A stretch of DNA of 64,000 nucleotides from Methanoculleus marisnigri JR1 (lineage in GTDB: Archaea > Halobacteriota > Methanomicrobia > Methanomicrobiales > Methanoculleaceae): contig NC_009051.1 of NCBI RefSeq assembly GCF_000015825.1, positions 1,792,695-1,856,694 of the forward strand, written 5' to 3'. Below are positions 13,571 to 47,928 of this stretch, one piece after another; within the stretch, counting starts at the first letter, position 1, and the number at the start of each line of letters is the position of its first letter. Made by a program: the position numbers and the translations under genes. The notes under the pieces were generated by a model, which saw only the letters and a program-made list of their open reading frames with translations, did no database searches and was not told where the DNA came from.

Positions 13571-13766
13571 GGGACGGCCTATGAAGGCCGACTCCGTAGC
13601 CCTTCTGCCTTGTTGGAACCCTTCTCTGGATAGTAGTCCCTGGAACAGGCCCGCACTTCAGATCGACCCTTGTCACGATTGCAATGAATCTATAGGGTGC
13701 GAGTGCTGACTGGCCGGGAGAGAAGCACTCGGCATGGACGATGAAAAAGCCCAGTACAGTGGACCA

Positions 13767-14093
13767 TGGGGATATCGCCACGGGGAGTGGGGACAGGGGA
13801 GGGGGGATGCTCCCCCCTCGAAACTCTTCGAGTTTCTCAAGCTCCGTTCCTGTCGGAACGTCGCACCTCGCACCTAACGGGGGTCGAACTCCGGTTCTTC
13901 GCACCTTCGGTGCTCACGCTCCGGTTCTAACGAACCGTCGCGCTTCGAACCATCGCACCTCGCACCTAACGGTGCTCAAGCTCGCTTCGCTCGCACTCCC
14001 CGTCAGCCCCTCCTCGCACCTGACGGTGCTCACACTCCTGCCGTCCCGGCAGTCGCACTCCGGAGCGTCGTTCCCCCAATGGCGATATCCCCA
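13767..14093. repeat. 327-bp segment bounded by 14-bp perfect inverted repeats
   Basis: TGGGGATATCGCCA at 13767-13780 is matched exactly by its reverse complement TGGCGATATCCCCA at 14080-14093. The interior contains hairpin repeats and no gene. The shape resembles a miniature inverted-repeat element, but no target-site duplication can be seen at its ends (GGACCA on the left, CGAAAT on the right), so mobility is unproven. Confidence 0.5.
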
Positions 14094-14205
14094 CGAAATC
14101 CGAGCCAGATGTGACCGGAGGTCATTGCCGGACGCAAGGGTTCGGGAGCGTACGTTATCAGCACAGGGGGGAGCGTGAGCACCGTCAGGTGCGAAATGCC
14201 GTTCA
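13855..14205. repeat. Dispersed GCACC(T)-GGTGC hairpin repeat copies
   Basis: Several degenerate copies of a unit containing TCGCACCTNACGGTGCTCA or TTCGCACCTTCGGTGCTCAC followed by GCTCCGGTTCT and ACGAACC lie here. One copy near 14165-14200 is inverted. The core is self-complementary. Related copies occur near 18581, 41920 and 44826. Confidence 0.6.
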
Positions 14206-44112: not shown

Positions 44113-44481
44113 ATGAGGTTCGCTATGCTACAGTTCGGCGGCAGCAACTGCGACCGGGACACCCACCACGTCCTCGCGGACGTCTGCGGGGTCGATACGG
44201 ATCGGGTCCGGTATAAGGACGGACTTTCACGCCTGAACCGCGAAGGAAGGGTCGCGTTTCGGTTCTGCGACGAGCACGGCAACGTAACGCCGGAGAGCAA
44301 CCCGAACGGGTCGGCGGAGAAAATCGCCGGTCTCCTCTCGGAGGGCAACAACGTGCTCGCGATGATGCCGCACCCCGAGCGGGCGAGCGTGCCCGTGCTC
44401 GGGTTGGATGACGGAGTCAAAATATTTAACTCGATGATACCCTATATCGAAGAGTACGGGCGCCAGCGAGTTGTACAATAG
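44113..44481 (+). CDS. purQ: PurQ-like protein with a large internal deletion
   Basis: 122 residues, against about 220-270 for PurQ. Residues 1-38 match the N-terminus (LQFGGSNCDRDTHHVL) and residues about 46-122 match the C-terminus (VAFRFCDEHGNVTPESNPNG and MMPHPERAS with the catalytic His/Glu). The middle, which should hold the nucleophile loop (GICNGFQ), is missing in frame. The product cannot hydrolyse glutamine. Either the gene is a pseudogene relic, or the remnant has only a structural role and another PurQ exists elsewhere. Reading frame and stop are intact, so loss may be recent, or the sequence could contain an assembly deletion. Confidence 0.8.
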   Translation: MRFAMLQFGGSNCDRDTHHVLADVCGVDTDRVRYKDGLSRLNREGRVAFRFCDEHGNVTPESNPNGSAEKIAGLLSEGNNVLAMMPHPERASVPVLGLDDGVKIFNSMIPYIEEYGRQRVVQ

Positions 44482-44491
44482 GAGTTTTATT

Positions 44492-44770
44492 ATGAGTGAA
44501 GAAGGGATCGAAGAGGCGCGGACCAGGGCAAAAGAGTACGCGAAAGAGAAGGGCTACATTTTAAACGTCGACGAGAAGCAGCTCGGGGCGGTTCTCCGCG
44601 GGCTCGCCCGGAACAAGGAGCGGTTCGGGGAGGCATACTGCCCCTGCAGGCTCCGGAGCGGCGACCCCGAGAAGGACCGGATCATCGTCTGCCCCTGCAT
44701 CTACCACGAGAAAGAGATCGAGGAGCAGGGCACCTGCCACTGCCGGCTGTTCTTCAAGAAGGGCGAATAA
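44492..44770 (+). CDS. Ferredoxin:thioredoxin reductase catalytic-subunit-like protein
   Basis: A 92-residue protein with three cysteine pairs in the FTR pattern: CPC (about residues 47-49), CPC (about 64-66, after 14 residues) and CHC (about 79-81, after 12 residues). These hold a 4Fe-4S cluster next to a redox-active disulphide. In methanogens such proteins pass electrons from ferredoxin to thioredoxin-like partners. AGGAG at 44480-44484 lies 7 nt before the ATG. It follows purQ by 10 nt and a T7 run ends the unit. Confidence 0.88.
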   Translation: MSEEGIEEARTRAKEYAKEKGYILNVDEKQLGAVLRGLARNKERFGEAYCPCRLRSGDPEKDRIIVCPCIYHEKEIEEQGTCHCRLFFKKGE

Positions 44771-44771
44771 C

Positions 44772-44778
44772 TTTTTTT
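44772..44778 (+). terminator. T7 terminator after the FTR-like gene
   Basis: Seven T start 2 nt after the stop codon, the usual archaeal intrinsic termination signal. Confidence 0.6.
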
Positions 44779-44825: not shown

Positions 44826-44992
44826 GCTCCGGTTCTTCGCACCTGAAGGTGCTCACGCTCCGGTTCTTCGCACCTGAAGGTGCTCACGCTCCGGTTCTTC
44901 GCACCTGAAGGTGCTCACGCTCCGGTTCTTCGCACCTGAAGGTGCTCACGCTCCGGTTCTTCGCACCTGAAGGTGCTCACGCTCCGGTTCTT
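44826..44992. repeat. 31-bp tandem repeat array, five perfect copies plus a partial
   Basis: Units start at 44826, 44857, 44888, 44919 and 44950, with a partial sixth from 44981. Each unit begins GCTCCGGTTCTTCGCACCTG and ends AAGGTGCTCAC. All five full copies are identical. The unit contains GCACCTGAAGGTGC, which can fold as a hairpin, and 31 is not a multiple of three, so the array is not coding. It lies between convergent genes. Confidence 0.95.
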
Positions 44993-45050
44993 ACGAACCA
45001 TCGCGTTACGAACCATCGCGCTACGAACCGTGGCGTTACGAACCGTCGCT
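44991..45050. repeat. 15-bp tandem repeat, four copies
   Basis: TTACGAACCATCGCG occurs at 44991 and 45006, then CTACGAACCGTGGCG at 45021 and TTACGAACCGTCGCT at 45036. It starts inside the last partial 31-bp unit and continues to 16 bp before the ubiB stop. Confidence 0.85.
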
Positions 45051-45065
45051 CCCGCGCCCCGTCAT

Positions 45066-46715
45066 TCATCGCCGAAGCCCCCGGCTGTGCCTGAAGACGA
45101 TATAGACCGCGTAGAACCCGACGATCACCGCGAAGACGTAACCCAGCGTCGCGAGAACGGAGACGTAGCCGGGGACCGGGAGATCGGCTATCCGGAGTAT
45201 CAGCGACGAGCCCACGACGACAGCGGCAACCACCAGCCCGACGATGATCTTGTCGCTCGTCCGGTCGATGACGCCGACGATCCGGTCGAGGTCGTGGTTC
45301 TCGAGCTCGAGCGTGACGGTGCCCTCCGAGAGGGTCTTTAACGTCTCGTTCACGTTTCCGGGGATGGCAAGCAGGCCTTCCGCCGCGTCCACGATCGACC
45401 GCACCGCGCCCGTCACGTTATCCGGGGAAAGACGCTGTTGCGCGGCAATCTCCAGCAGGTACGGCCGGACCCTCTGGTCGAAGTTGAACGCGGGATCGAG
45501 CCGGGTGCCGACGTCCATAACCATGACGATCACCTTCATCATCAGCATCAGGGTGGACGGCACCCGGATATGGTACCGCCGGAGGGTGTCGGTCAGGCCG
45601 CGGATCGCGACGGCGAAGTTCACCCGCTCGAGTTTCATCTCCCGGTAATCCAGCATGACGAGGTAGAGGTCGTCCTTTACGGCGTCGAGGTCCGCCGGGT
45701 TGATATGCACGTCGAGTTTTCCGAGCGCGGCGATCACGCCTGCGACGTCCTTGCGGGTCATGGCGAGGAGGAAGTCGACAAAGACCCGCCTTCTCTCCAG
45801 GCGGAGGACGCCCACGATGCCGTAGTCGAGGAAGACGATCTCCCCGAGTTCGGTCACCAGAAGGTTTCCCGGGTGAGGATCGCCGTGAAAGAAACCGTCG
45901 ACGAAGATCTGCTGGACGTAGGCGGCAAACCCGGTGTCGGCGATATCTTCCGGGAAGAGGCCGAGGGCCCGGATCGCCTCCACGTCGTCGATCCGCACGC
46001 CTTCGACGTAGTCCATGGCCAGCAGACGGGGACCGGAGATTTCCCAGTAAACCCGGGGAATCTTCACGCATTCCAGATCCTGCAGGTTCCGCCTGAGGCG
46101 CTCCGCGTTCGCCCCGTCCTGGGTAAAGTCCAGTTCCCGCCGGATCTGGGCCGAGAACTCGTCCATCATACCCTGCAGGTTGTATACCCGCATGTCCGGG
46201 AAGATCGACTCCACCCGGGTCACGAGCGACTGCAGGATCAGAAGATCGGTCTCGATGAGGTCGACGATCCCCGGGCGCTGCACCTTGAGTGCGACGACAT
46301 GGCCGTCCCTCGTCACCGCACGGTGCACCTGCGAGAGGGAGGCCGCCGCGACCGGCTCCTCCTCGATGATGTCGAAACACTCCTCGAGGTTCGGACAGTA
46401 CTCCATGATCACCGGCCGGATCTCTTCAAACGGAACCGGGGCAACCCGGTCCTGGAGTTTCTGCAGTTCCTCGATCAGATCGGGCGGCAGGAGCTCTCGC
46501 CGGGTGCTCATGATCTGGCCGAACTTGATGTAGGTCGGCCCCAGTTCCTCGATCGCAAGCCGGATCCGTTCGTATACCGATCGTTTCTCTTCGGGAGGTC
46601 TCCTGAATACCCGCAGCCGTTCGGCCCCGGGAATGACCTCCTCGACGAGAACTCCGAAACCATACTTGACCAGCACATCTGCTATCTGGCGGTAGCGCCG
46701 GAGCCGGGTGACCAT
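45066..46715 (-). CDS. ABC1/UbiB family atypical protein kinase
   Basis: 549 residues with UbiB/ADCK signatures: the KxGQ motif in TYIKFGQIMSTRRELLP, the alanine-rich loop AAASLSQVHRA, VALKVQRPG, the catalytic DPHPGNLL and the DFG-like FLDYG. Two C-terminal membrane helices (about 505-545) anchor it. In other organisms UbiB supports isoprenoid quinone synthesis; methanogens of this group lack those quinones, so here it may act on other prenyl lipids. Start at 46715 (MVTRLRRYRQIADV), because the longer frame runs into the MFS gene. Confidence 0.9.
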   Translation of the reverse strand: MVTRLRRYRQIADVLVKYGFGVLVEEVIPGAERLRVFRRPPEEKRSVYERIRLAIEELGPTYIKFGQIMSTRRELLPPDLIEELQKLQDRVAPVPFEEIRPVIMEYCPNLEECFDIIEEEPVAAASLSQVHRAVTRDGHVVALKVQRPGIVDLIETDLLILQSLVTRVESIFPDMRVYNLQGMMDEFSAQIRRELDFTQDGANAERLRRNLQDLECVKIPRVYWEISGPRLLAMDYVEGVRIDDVEAIRALGLFPEDIADTGFAAYVQQIFVDGFFHGDPHPGNLLVTELGEIVFLDYGIVGVLRLERRRVFVDFLLAMTRKDVAGVIAALGKLDVHINPADLDAVKDDLYLVMLDYREMKLERVNFAVAIRGLTDTLRRYHIRVPSTLMLMMKVIVMVMDVGTRLDPAFNFDQRVRPYLLEIAAQQRLSPDNVTGAVRSIVDAAEGLLAIPGNVNETLKTLSEGTVTLELENHDLDRIVGVIDRTSDKIIVGLVVAAVVVGSSLILRIADLPVPGYVSVLATLGYVFAVIVGFYAVYIVFRHSRGLRR

Positions 46716-46758
46716 CGGGGATGAATCCGCACTCCCGGTACTTAAGGGATGGGGCGGA

Positions 46759-47928
46759 TCATCCCCGGGAGGGGAGCCGGCCCCGGACGAGGGATTTCCA
46801 GGGGTAGGGGACGAGGAGGAAGAGCGGCACGGCAAGGACGATCGCGAGCGGGATCGTTGCGAGCCCGAGCGTCAGCGTGGTCATATCGGCGATCCAGCCG
46901 GTGACCGAGACACCCATCCCGCCCACGCCGACCGCGAGCCCGAGCATCAGGCCGGAGACGAGCCCGACGTTGCCCGGGGCAATCTCGTGGGCCATGGCAA
47001 CGGTGACGGCGAAGGTCGACCAGAGGATGAACCCGAAGACCATCAGCGCGGCGAGCGAGAGAATGCCGCCGGTGGTGAGGAATATGACGAACGGCGGGAT
47101 AGCGGTAACGAGCCCGATGATCGTAAACTCTTTGCGGCCGTAGCGGTCGGAGAGCACGCCGCCGACCACCTGCCCCACGACCCCGGCGATGAGCATGCCC
47201 GAGACCAGGATATTCGCGGTCACGAGATCGATCCCCCGCATGGTGAGGATGGTGGGGAGGAAGGCGACCGAGCCGAAGATCGCCCATGCTCGCAGGCCCG
47301 AGGCCGCGATCAGGAGGACGATCGCCCGGTAAGAGGGTTTGGCGGCGGGGGCGGGCATCTTCGGGACGGCTGCGCGGTCGGGGGCGGGGAGGATACGCCT
47401 GAGTACCACCGCCATCACGAGACCGGGGACGGCGAGGACGACGAGACCCGGAAGGCCCATCAGCCCGACGGCGACCCCGGCGCAGATGGGGCCGATCGCG
47501 TAGCCGAGGTTGCCGCCGATGACGAAGTAAGAGGTGATCCGGCCCCGGATAGAGTCACTGGCCAGACGGCTGACGGTGCCGAGCGCGCTCGGGTGGAAGA
47601 AAGCGTGCCCCAGCGCCGCAACGGCGACGGATGCGAGGACGAGGAAGTAGTTGTCCAGGAGCCCGACGATGGATATGAAGATCGCGCTTATGGCCACGCT
47701 CGTGCCGACGTGGACGGCAAACCCCCGGGTATCGAAGACCCAGCCGACGAGCGGCTGCACGAACGACGACGTGAGGTTGTAGACCGTGACGATCAGCCCG
47801 GCGAGGAAGAACGAGTAGCCCTGCTCTGCGATGAGGAGCGGCAGGATTGCAGGAAGAACGGGTGAATAGAGGTCAGTTACCAGATGGGCAGCGGAGAGCC
47901 CCCAGACGGGTTTGGTATCAACAGTCAC
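46759..47928 (-). CDS. Major facilitator superfamily transporter
   Basis: A 389-residue MFS carrier with about 12 hydrophobic segments. The loop 2-3 motif appears as GWVFDTRGF, and the mid-protein repeat GGVLSDRYGRKEFT is the typical MFS A-motif. It resembles FSR-like drug or sugar effluxers. GTG start at 47928, with GAGGATC just upstream inside the methyltransferase end. Substrate unknown. Confidence 0.9.
   Translation of the reverse strand: MTVDTKPVWGLSAAHLVTDLYSPVLPAILPLLIAEQGYSFFLAGLIVTVYNLTSSFVQPLVGWVFDTRGFAVHVGTSVAISAIFISIVGLLDNYFLVLASVAVAALGHAFFHPSALGTVSRLASDSIRGRITSYFVIGGNLGYAIGPICAGVAVGLMGLPGLVVLAVPGLVMAVVLRRILPAPDRAAVPKMPAPAAKPSYRAIVLLIAASGLRAWAIFGSVAFLPTILTMRGIDLVTANILVSGMLIAGVVGQVVGGVLSDRYGRKEFTIIGLVTAIPPFVIFLTTGGILSLAALMVFGFILWSTFAVTVAMAHEIAPGNVGLVSGLMLGLAVGVGGMGVSVTGWIADMTTLTLGLATIPLAIVLAVPLFLLVPYPWKSLVRGRLPSRG

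Follow-up and report, generated by a model that had tools for sequence, protein, structure and literature searches.

The tandem array between two convergent genes of Methanoculleus marisnigri JR1 is one copy of a genome-wide family of palindromic repeats, and its 31-bp and 15-bp tracts are the two parts of one 46-bp unit. Probably, the array is a locally amplified member of this family, in which nesting was followed by slippage, or by further self-nesting, that lengthened the arms. The window, by which we mean the whole stretch of 64,000 nucleotides that was analysed, is part of the single 2,478,101-bp contig of this genome (G000).

The array and its locus

44492–44770, + strand: ferredoxin-thioredoxin reductase beta-chain gene, left neighbour (PF02943, E 5e-23)
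44772–44778, + strand: T-run directly after the stop of the left gene, upstream of the array (direct reading)
44826–44992, + strand: 31-bp array, (A B)5 A (TRF period 31, 5.4 copies, 100% matches)
44826–44837, + strand: first left arm A (GCTCCGGTTCTT), the outermost arm of the nested hpII (direct reading)
44826–44856, 44857–44887, 44888–44918, 44919–44949 and 44950–44980: full 31-bp units (direct reading)
44981–44992: partial 12-base unit GCTCCGGTTCTT (direct reading)
44993–45052, + strand: 15-bp array, four right arms C (TRF 44991–45049, period 15, 3.9 copies, 88%)
45066–46835, − strand: ABC1/UbiB-like kinase gene, right neighbour (PF03109, E 1.4e-72)

The whole array (224 bp) occupies most of the 295-bp gap between the two genes, and their convergence, noted in an earlier sequence-only reading, is borne out by the two Pfam matches on opposite strands. 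The same reading had described five perfect 31-bp units and a partial one, with a hairpin in each, which TRF and direct reading confirm; every full unit is composed of a left arm A and the hairpin hpI (B, CGCACCTGAAGGTGCTCAC), and contains GCACCTGAAGGTGC. Of the 15-bp array that it reported, the four units are present, but they are 88% alike and not identical (ACGAACCATCGCGTT, ACGAACCATCGCGCT, ACGAACCGTGGCGTT, ACGAACCGTCGC...). These right arms are of the type ACGAACC[A/G]TCGCGTT and complementary to A, and the pairing of A with C appears in predicted folds; by direct reading, six A stand against four C. At up to three mismatches, the 18-mer GCTCACGCTCCGGTTCTT has eight matches in the window, six of them within the array, against 0.05 expected. 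In addition, the predicted fold of the array region exceeds that of shuffled sequences, both as RNA (z −4.45 and −5.51 for the two strands) and as DNA (z −3.10). A CRISPR array was rejected, as the units stand head to tail and have no spacers, and 0 CRISPR repeats are reported for the JR1 genome in the available part of its description (PMC3035220).

The ferredoxin-thioredoxin reductase gene has relatives in 34 of the 35 genomes of the genus. At 44113–44481 of the window, a purQ-like gene encodes only 122 aa, while intact PurQ has 237–243 aa in four other genomes (G024, G025, G034 and G010). Compared with intact PurQ it is without an internal stretch including GGFSYGDYLRAGAI...LGICNGAQ, which we take to include the glutaminase Cys region. 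This gene seems to be undergoing decay in some members of the genus, because the PurQ frames are shortened differently in G004, G008 and G009.

Abundance and range of the repeat family

Compared with its own genome, the array region gives at least 42 matches at E<0.001, itself included, and at least 54 at E up to 10; 40 of the 57 candidates were scored, and several matches fall in one array. One example is a match of 84% over 89 bp at 1806562. Of 35 Methanoculleus genomes, 25 contain the hpI pattern TCGCACCTNNNGGTGCTCANNCTC; among 164 genomes from the rest of the order, one has it as well, while the reversed pattern gave 0 matches across the same genomes. The sole positive outside the genus (G119) belongs to a different genus of the same family and has seven matches to the hpI pattern. 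As for a viral source, the pattern has 0 exact matches in the viral_contigs set. The family is thus nearly restricted to Methanoculleus, and consists of non-coding palindromic repeats like REPs and GC clusters. Intergenic enrichment measured by masking long ORFs was uninformative, since repeat-rich, GC-rich gaps carry long spurious ORFs (ORF coverage 0.84); of the modules with TN(N)C loops, such ORFs took in 31 of 47 belonging to type I and 15 of 28 belonging to type II. A location in gaps is therefore claimed only for the loci that were directly read.

Hairpin grammar, stems and loops

From the copies, the grammar TCG[hpI]CTC-N3-CTC[hpII]TCG-N4 was derived, in which the two hairpins alternate. 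It was tested on 20 samples of 20 kb, evenly spaced along the genome, against five dinucleotide shuffles. In the JR1 samples, 66 type I hairpins were counted against 9–18 in the shuffles, and 35 of type II against 1–5. For four control box combinations the counts were 6, 12, 11 and 5, with ranges in the shuffles of 1–8, 3–10, 4–9 and 1–4, respectively, and three of these counts were slightly above the highest shuffle (12 vs 10, 11 vs 9 and 5 vs 4). A second genome (G003) showed 23 of type I against 3–12 and 15 of type II against 0–1, while G010, which is without the hpI pattern, had four and one, like its own shuffles. Within G010, two regions (L154 14076–15345 and L156 1653–2882) contain tandem repeats of 267 and 260 bp, about five copies each, whose G-rich and C-rich stretches resemble the ends of the composite element described below.

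Sites in the same JR1 samples and the window were also chosen by their boxes with pairing ignored. Among 238 type II sites, 17 then had at least five outer pairs, and none of 98 controls did; for type I, at least four were present at 51 of 310 sites and at 0 of 111 controls. Across all JR1 loci, 16 different perfectly complementary hpII stems of at least six pairs were listed. The constraint looks to be on folding and on the boxes, not on stem sequence, because these 16 compensated stems differ between the same boxes.

The loops follow a rule as well. Among JR1 loci, which were partly picked by similarity, TNC makes up 84 of 104 type I loops of 3 nt (GNA 1) and TNNC 30 of 40 of 4 nt; for type II the counts are 57 of 72 and 14 of 23. 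In the evenly spaced samples only, they are 25/36 and 9/15 for type I and 17/21 and 3/5 for type II, and at loci of other species 56/68 and 63/74, and 38/52 and 18/19, respectively. Two box controls contained TN(N)C loops in 0 of 5 and 0 of 3 cases. TNC and TNNC on one strand are GNA and GNNA on the other, and GNRA is a common stable RNA loop. According to the available part of PMC4686876, GNA and GNNA loops with at least two G–C pairs form unusually stable DNA mini-hairpins. The loop rule of the family is a better match to such DNA loops than to the stable loops usual in RNA, and the hairpins may matter as single-stranded DNA. On loop sequence, an RNA reading appears disfavoured, and not more than that, because in other species GNRA on the other strand accounts for 14 of 74 4-nt loops in type I hairpins and for 6 of 19 in type II (2 of 40 type I loops in JR1).

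In the window array itself, hpI has its boxes and stem (TCG-CACC-TGAA-GGTG-CTC), with the loop TGAA and not TN(N)C, and hpII (CTC-CGGTTC-TTAC-GAACCA-TCG) has five of six pairs, a C·A outer mismatch and a TNNC loop. The strict grammar scan does not score this array; because its hpI loop and hpII mismatch fail the strict grammar, its membership rests on sequence similarity.

Tandem and nested forms of the 46-bp unit

The family unit is hpI plus hpII, about 46 bp. It is found singly, as tandem copies or placed within the loop of a second hpII. In tandem it forms, for instance, an array of 14 copies at 1429835 of G000. Double modules enclosed by complementary arms with the right boxes were 25 of 131, compared with a mean of 3.6 and a maximum of 10 in 500 for permuted pairs; in this count, as in that of arm order, the copies are related by descent and similarity searches supplied many of the loci, so the cases are not independent events. 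The box-restricted test replaced an earlier one with loose arms (45 of 130, where permutations averaged 16.9 and reached at most 30). The nested unit plus spacer measures 45–49 bp, the loop that remains after its excision is TN(N)C in 18 of the 25 cases, and these 25 cases have at least three clearly different outer stems. Nested elements with the order A-B-A-C-C are present at loci elsewhere. The 31-plus-15 pattern is accounted for in this way, because nesting puts 31 bp (hpI and left arm) to the left of the loop and 15 bp (right arm) to its right.

For this arm family, the order A..AC..C, not ACAC, was found in 12 of 13 multi-arm clusters with both arms, out of 161 arm clusters of which 16 had at least two arms of a kind, 13 of these having both. 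The cluster count merges identical 40-base flanks, whereby an array of G000 with six A and eight C (the sister array below) is folded into its orthologue in G007, and its strict arm patterns register three C in the window array and two A in G011. Simple tandem duplications, of 46, 49, 61, 78 and 86 bp, are common in the family; at another locus, G012 has one copy of a 61-bp segment that G000 carries in tandem. In addition, a 63-bp array of 13.7 copies in G000 (L126 9697–10559) has a unit that contains the family hairpin AAAATGC-GCA-GCATTTT.

The window contains further members of the family:

13760–14120, + strand: large composite family element with about ten predicted hairpins
13768–13780 and 14080–14092: inverted repeats of the composite element (GGGGATATCGCCA and TGGCGATATCCCC)
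13889–13955, + strand: second nested double hairpin in the window, CTC-CGGTTC-T[46-bp unit]TC-GAACCA-TCG

At up to three mismatches, the outer pattern of the composite element occurs 54 times in the genome, while the reversed control gave 0. By eye, no composite element was seen in the orthologous gap of G009, and in G011 the composite shell is present with a different number of inner modules.

The sister array and the orthologous gaps

The closest among the matches scored is a sister array at 546793–547016 of the same chromosome, with the same architecture and 94% identity. Its locus is shared by other species, and the longest alignments of the flanks are 90–97% identical between them. Counted as left arms/hairpins/right arms, the sister locus has 2/1/2 in G008 (MAG HGW-Methanomicrobiales-6), 2/1/4 in G007 (M. 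sp. FWC-SCC3), 3/2/5 in G011 (M. sediminis S3Fa) and 6/5/8 in G000, the first three being named by identical sequence. Right arms exceed left arms by two in three of these species, which hints at paired growth steps, but by none in the fourth.

All five units of the JR1 sister array carry GACGGCG and all five of the window array GAAGGTG, while in G011 the sister locus has one unit of each. The units of each array seem to have been homogenised from a single one, because they are uniform within an array and mixed in G011. GACGGCG disrupts a stem pair, yet was copied five times in the sister array of G000; because a stem-breaking unit was nonetheless amplified fivefold, this argues against selection for the hpI hairpin.

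Each species was represented by a single genome, and comparisons of filled and empty sites are thus between species. For the window locus, the genus offers 30 orthologous loci when that of the window is counted: 26 with whole gaps and four with partial ones. The 31-bp array is found in one of the 26 whole gaps, the window's own, and in none of the four partial ones; two A-B units are absent from all 29 other loci (four of them partial). At this locus G011 has a single degenerate, unexpanded A/C hairpin, G003 has one A and two C, and G009 a tandem 46-bp array of seven copies. The recent expansion proposed in the sequence-only reading gains support from this single occurrence and from the variable copy number of the sister array among orthologues.

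Discussion

Origin and growth of the array

The proposed history begins with a unit placed in the loop of another hpII, which would give the order A-B-A-C-C. In this order, A would be directly repeated at a distance of 31 bp, around an intervening hpI, and C at a distance of 15 bp. Through slippage of strands between these direct repeats, or through more self-nesting, the left side might then gain 31 bp at a time and the right side 15 bp at a time, and stalling at the hairpins might assist slippage. Nesting would have come first at the window locus, where the A-B-A-C-C precursor was not seen in any relative, and slippage would drive the growth of the arms. Hairpin-linked slippage, suggested in the sequence-only reading, is plausible and the best account of how each arm grew. 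A strict model of pure nesting, with equal numbers of A and C, was rejected for the window array with its six A and four C.

A further reading, which has some merit but is doubtful, takes the 46-bp unit to be a mobile double DNA hairpin that is copied by an enzyme and inserts preferentially into the loops of its own hpII, producing branched nested trees and, through repeated self-nesting, split 31-plus-15 arrays. A host enzyme, or another hairpin-processing enzyme, would in this case act on single-stranded DNA with GNA/GNNA loops and copy the unit by copy-and-paste.

Plain tandem slippage is an unlikely explanation. According to it, the hairpins are passengers, the 31-bp and 15-bp tracts arose independently, and neither nesting nor a mobile unit had a role. 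Separate histories would suit 31-bp units that are identical beside 15-bp units that are 88% alike, as well as the unequal A and C of the window array, and simple tandem duplications are common in the family; however, 31 and 15 add up to the family unit, the nested order recurs at other loci where excision restores the standard loop in 18 of 25 cases, and the surplus of two C over A appears in three of the four sister-array orthologues. Local amplification of a nested family member, as proposed above, most likely leaves the array as selfish or neutral structured DNA, for which no function in gene expression is needed.

The transcription question

A role as terminator or RNA, also raised in the sequence-only reading, fared poorly. 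That the array serves as a bidirectional transcription terminator, or as a stabiliser of mRNA ends, between the convergent genes is very unlikely, and a role in transcription is at best weakly supported, because a T-run belonging to the left gene is found at 25 of 30 loci. This count is of at least five T within 20 nt of the stop at the orthologous loci, array or not, and we take the T-run at 44772–44778 to be the likely archaeal terminator of the left gene. The position between convergent genes and the strong predicted RNA fold on both strands would suit such a role, but the array is confined to one species, the stem is mismatched (GCACC...GGCGC) in every one of the five sister-array units, and the loops are of the DNA type, with few GNRA among the 4-nt type I loops of JR1. 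Moreover, at gathering score Rfam gives no match in the array, those elsewhere in the window being rRNA and tRNA only, and a search of five family loci gave only three sub-threshold miRNA matches (E 0.09–0.68).

Transposase and artefact

Movement as a REP/BIME-type element by an IS200/IS605-like (RAYT, Y1) transposase is highly improbable. Short interspersed palindromes, fixed flanking boxes and loops friendly to single-stranded DNA would be expected features of such an element, but Y1_Tnp (PF01797) has 0 matches in the genome, with 5 of 14 control genomes positive, and is above cut-off in 2 of 25 family-bearing against 4 of 10 family-free genomes of the genus. The hairpin feet are TCG/CTC (CGA/GAG on the other strand), not GTAG.

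Perfect tandem repeats are prone to copy-number errors of assembly and sequencing, and an array of 224 bp is short enough for one typical ABI 3730 read. That the copy number is such an artefact, a worry expressed in the sequence-only reading as assembly collapse, is extremely improbable, since JR1 was finished from ABI 3730 reads assembled with Phrap (PMC3035220, available part) and since the sister array and orthologues in other genome records share the architecture.

Relation to known repeats

Double-hairpin elements of fungi are said to be small palindromic elements akin to GC clusters, and insertion sequences that target REPs have reportedly been described. REP/BIME elements are likewise short interspersed palindromes; a constant tag flanks stems that vary, and the elements often occur in pairs and clusters (PMC3733652, in the part available). 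Their tags are GTAG and CGTC, whereas the Methanoculleus family has TCG/CTC boxes on both sides; moreover, unlike in REP/BIME, two hairpin types alternate and units nest in loops, and JR1 has no Y1. The string 'Methano' is absent from the available text of that paper. The GC clusters of yeast mitochondria, as presented in the accessible part of PMC4478555, are also palindromic, with stems more conserved than loops, and merge and shuffle into larger clusters; the mechanism of their amplification is unsettled, as it is in the Methanoculleus family. The latter differs from them in its archaeal chromosome, fixed box grammar, TN(N)C loops and loop-nesting that leads to split arrays.

Within the lineage, a G-quadruplex motif of Methanomicrobiaceae has been described that is intergenic and multi-copy, as the family is, and that in Methanoculleus has G-runs, a central loop CTGAC and a 3' C-rich tract (PMC8044849, available part). 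In our own reading, this motif appears to correspond to the G-rich stem found in the composite elements, for example GGGGTGGGGCTGACGGGGAG near locus L044. The available text of that study treats the G-rich/C-rich motif only, without hairpin grammar, nesting or arrays, and 'palindrom', 'transpos' and 'inverted repeat' are absent from it. A survey of prokaryotic satellites lists 21 for M. marisnigri, 71.4% of which have long repeats, and two families of satellites, of 45 and 51 nt; in the part of the source available, they are not treated as hairpins or as one repeat family (PMC6749651). No earlier description of the family was found in a literature search whose coverage mostly excluded subscription papers, the two latter studies giving partial views, and the hairpin-repeat family as such is apparently previously undescribed.

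Significance

The double tandem array offers a readable record of how a hairpin repeat grows, by loop nesting and then arm-wise expansion, with orthologous intermediates in sequenced species. It also provides an archaeal system in which DNA-loop stability, the maintenance of palindromes under sequence change and slippage can be separated. Moreover, the family may explain the strong divergence of two compared intergenic regions between close Methanoculleus species.
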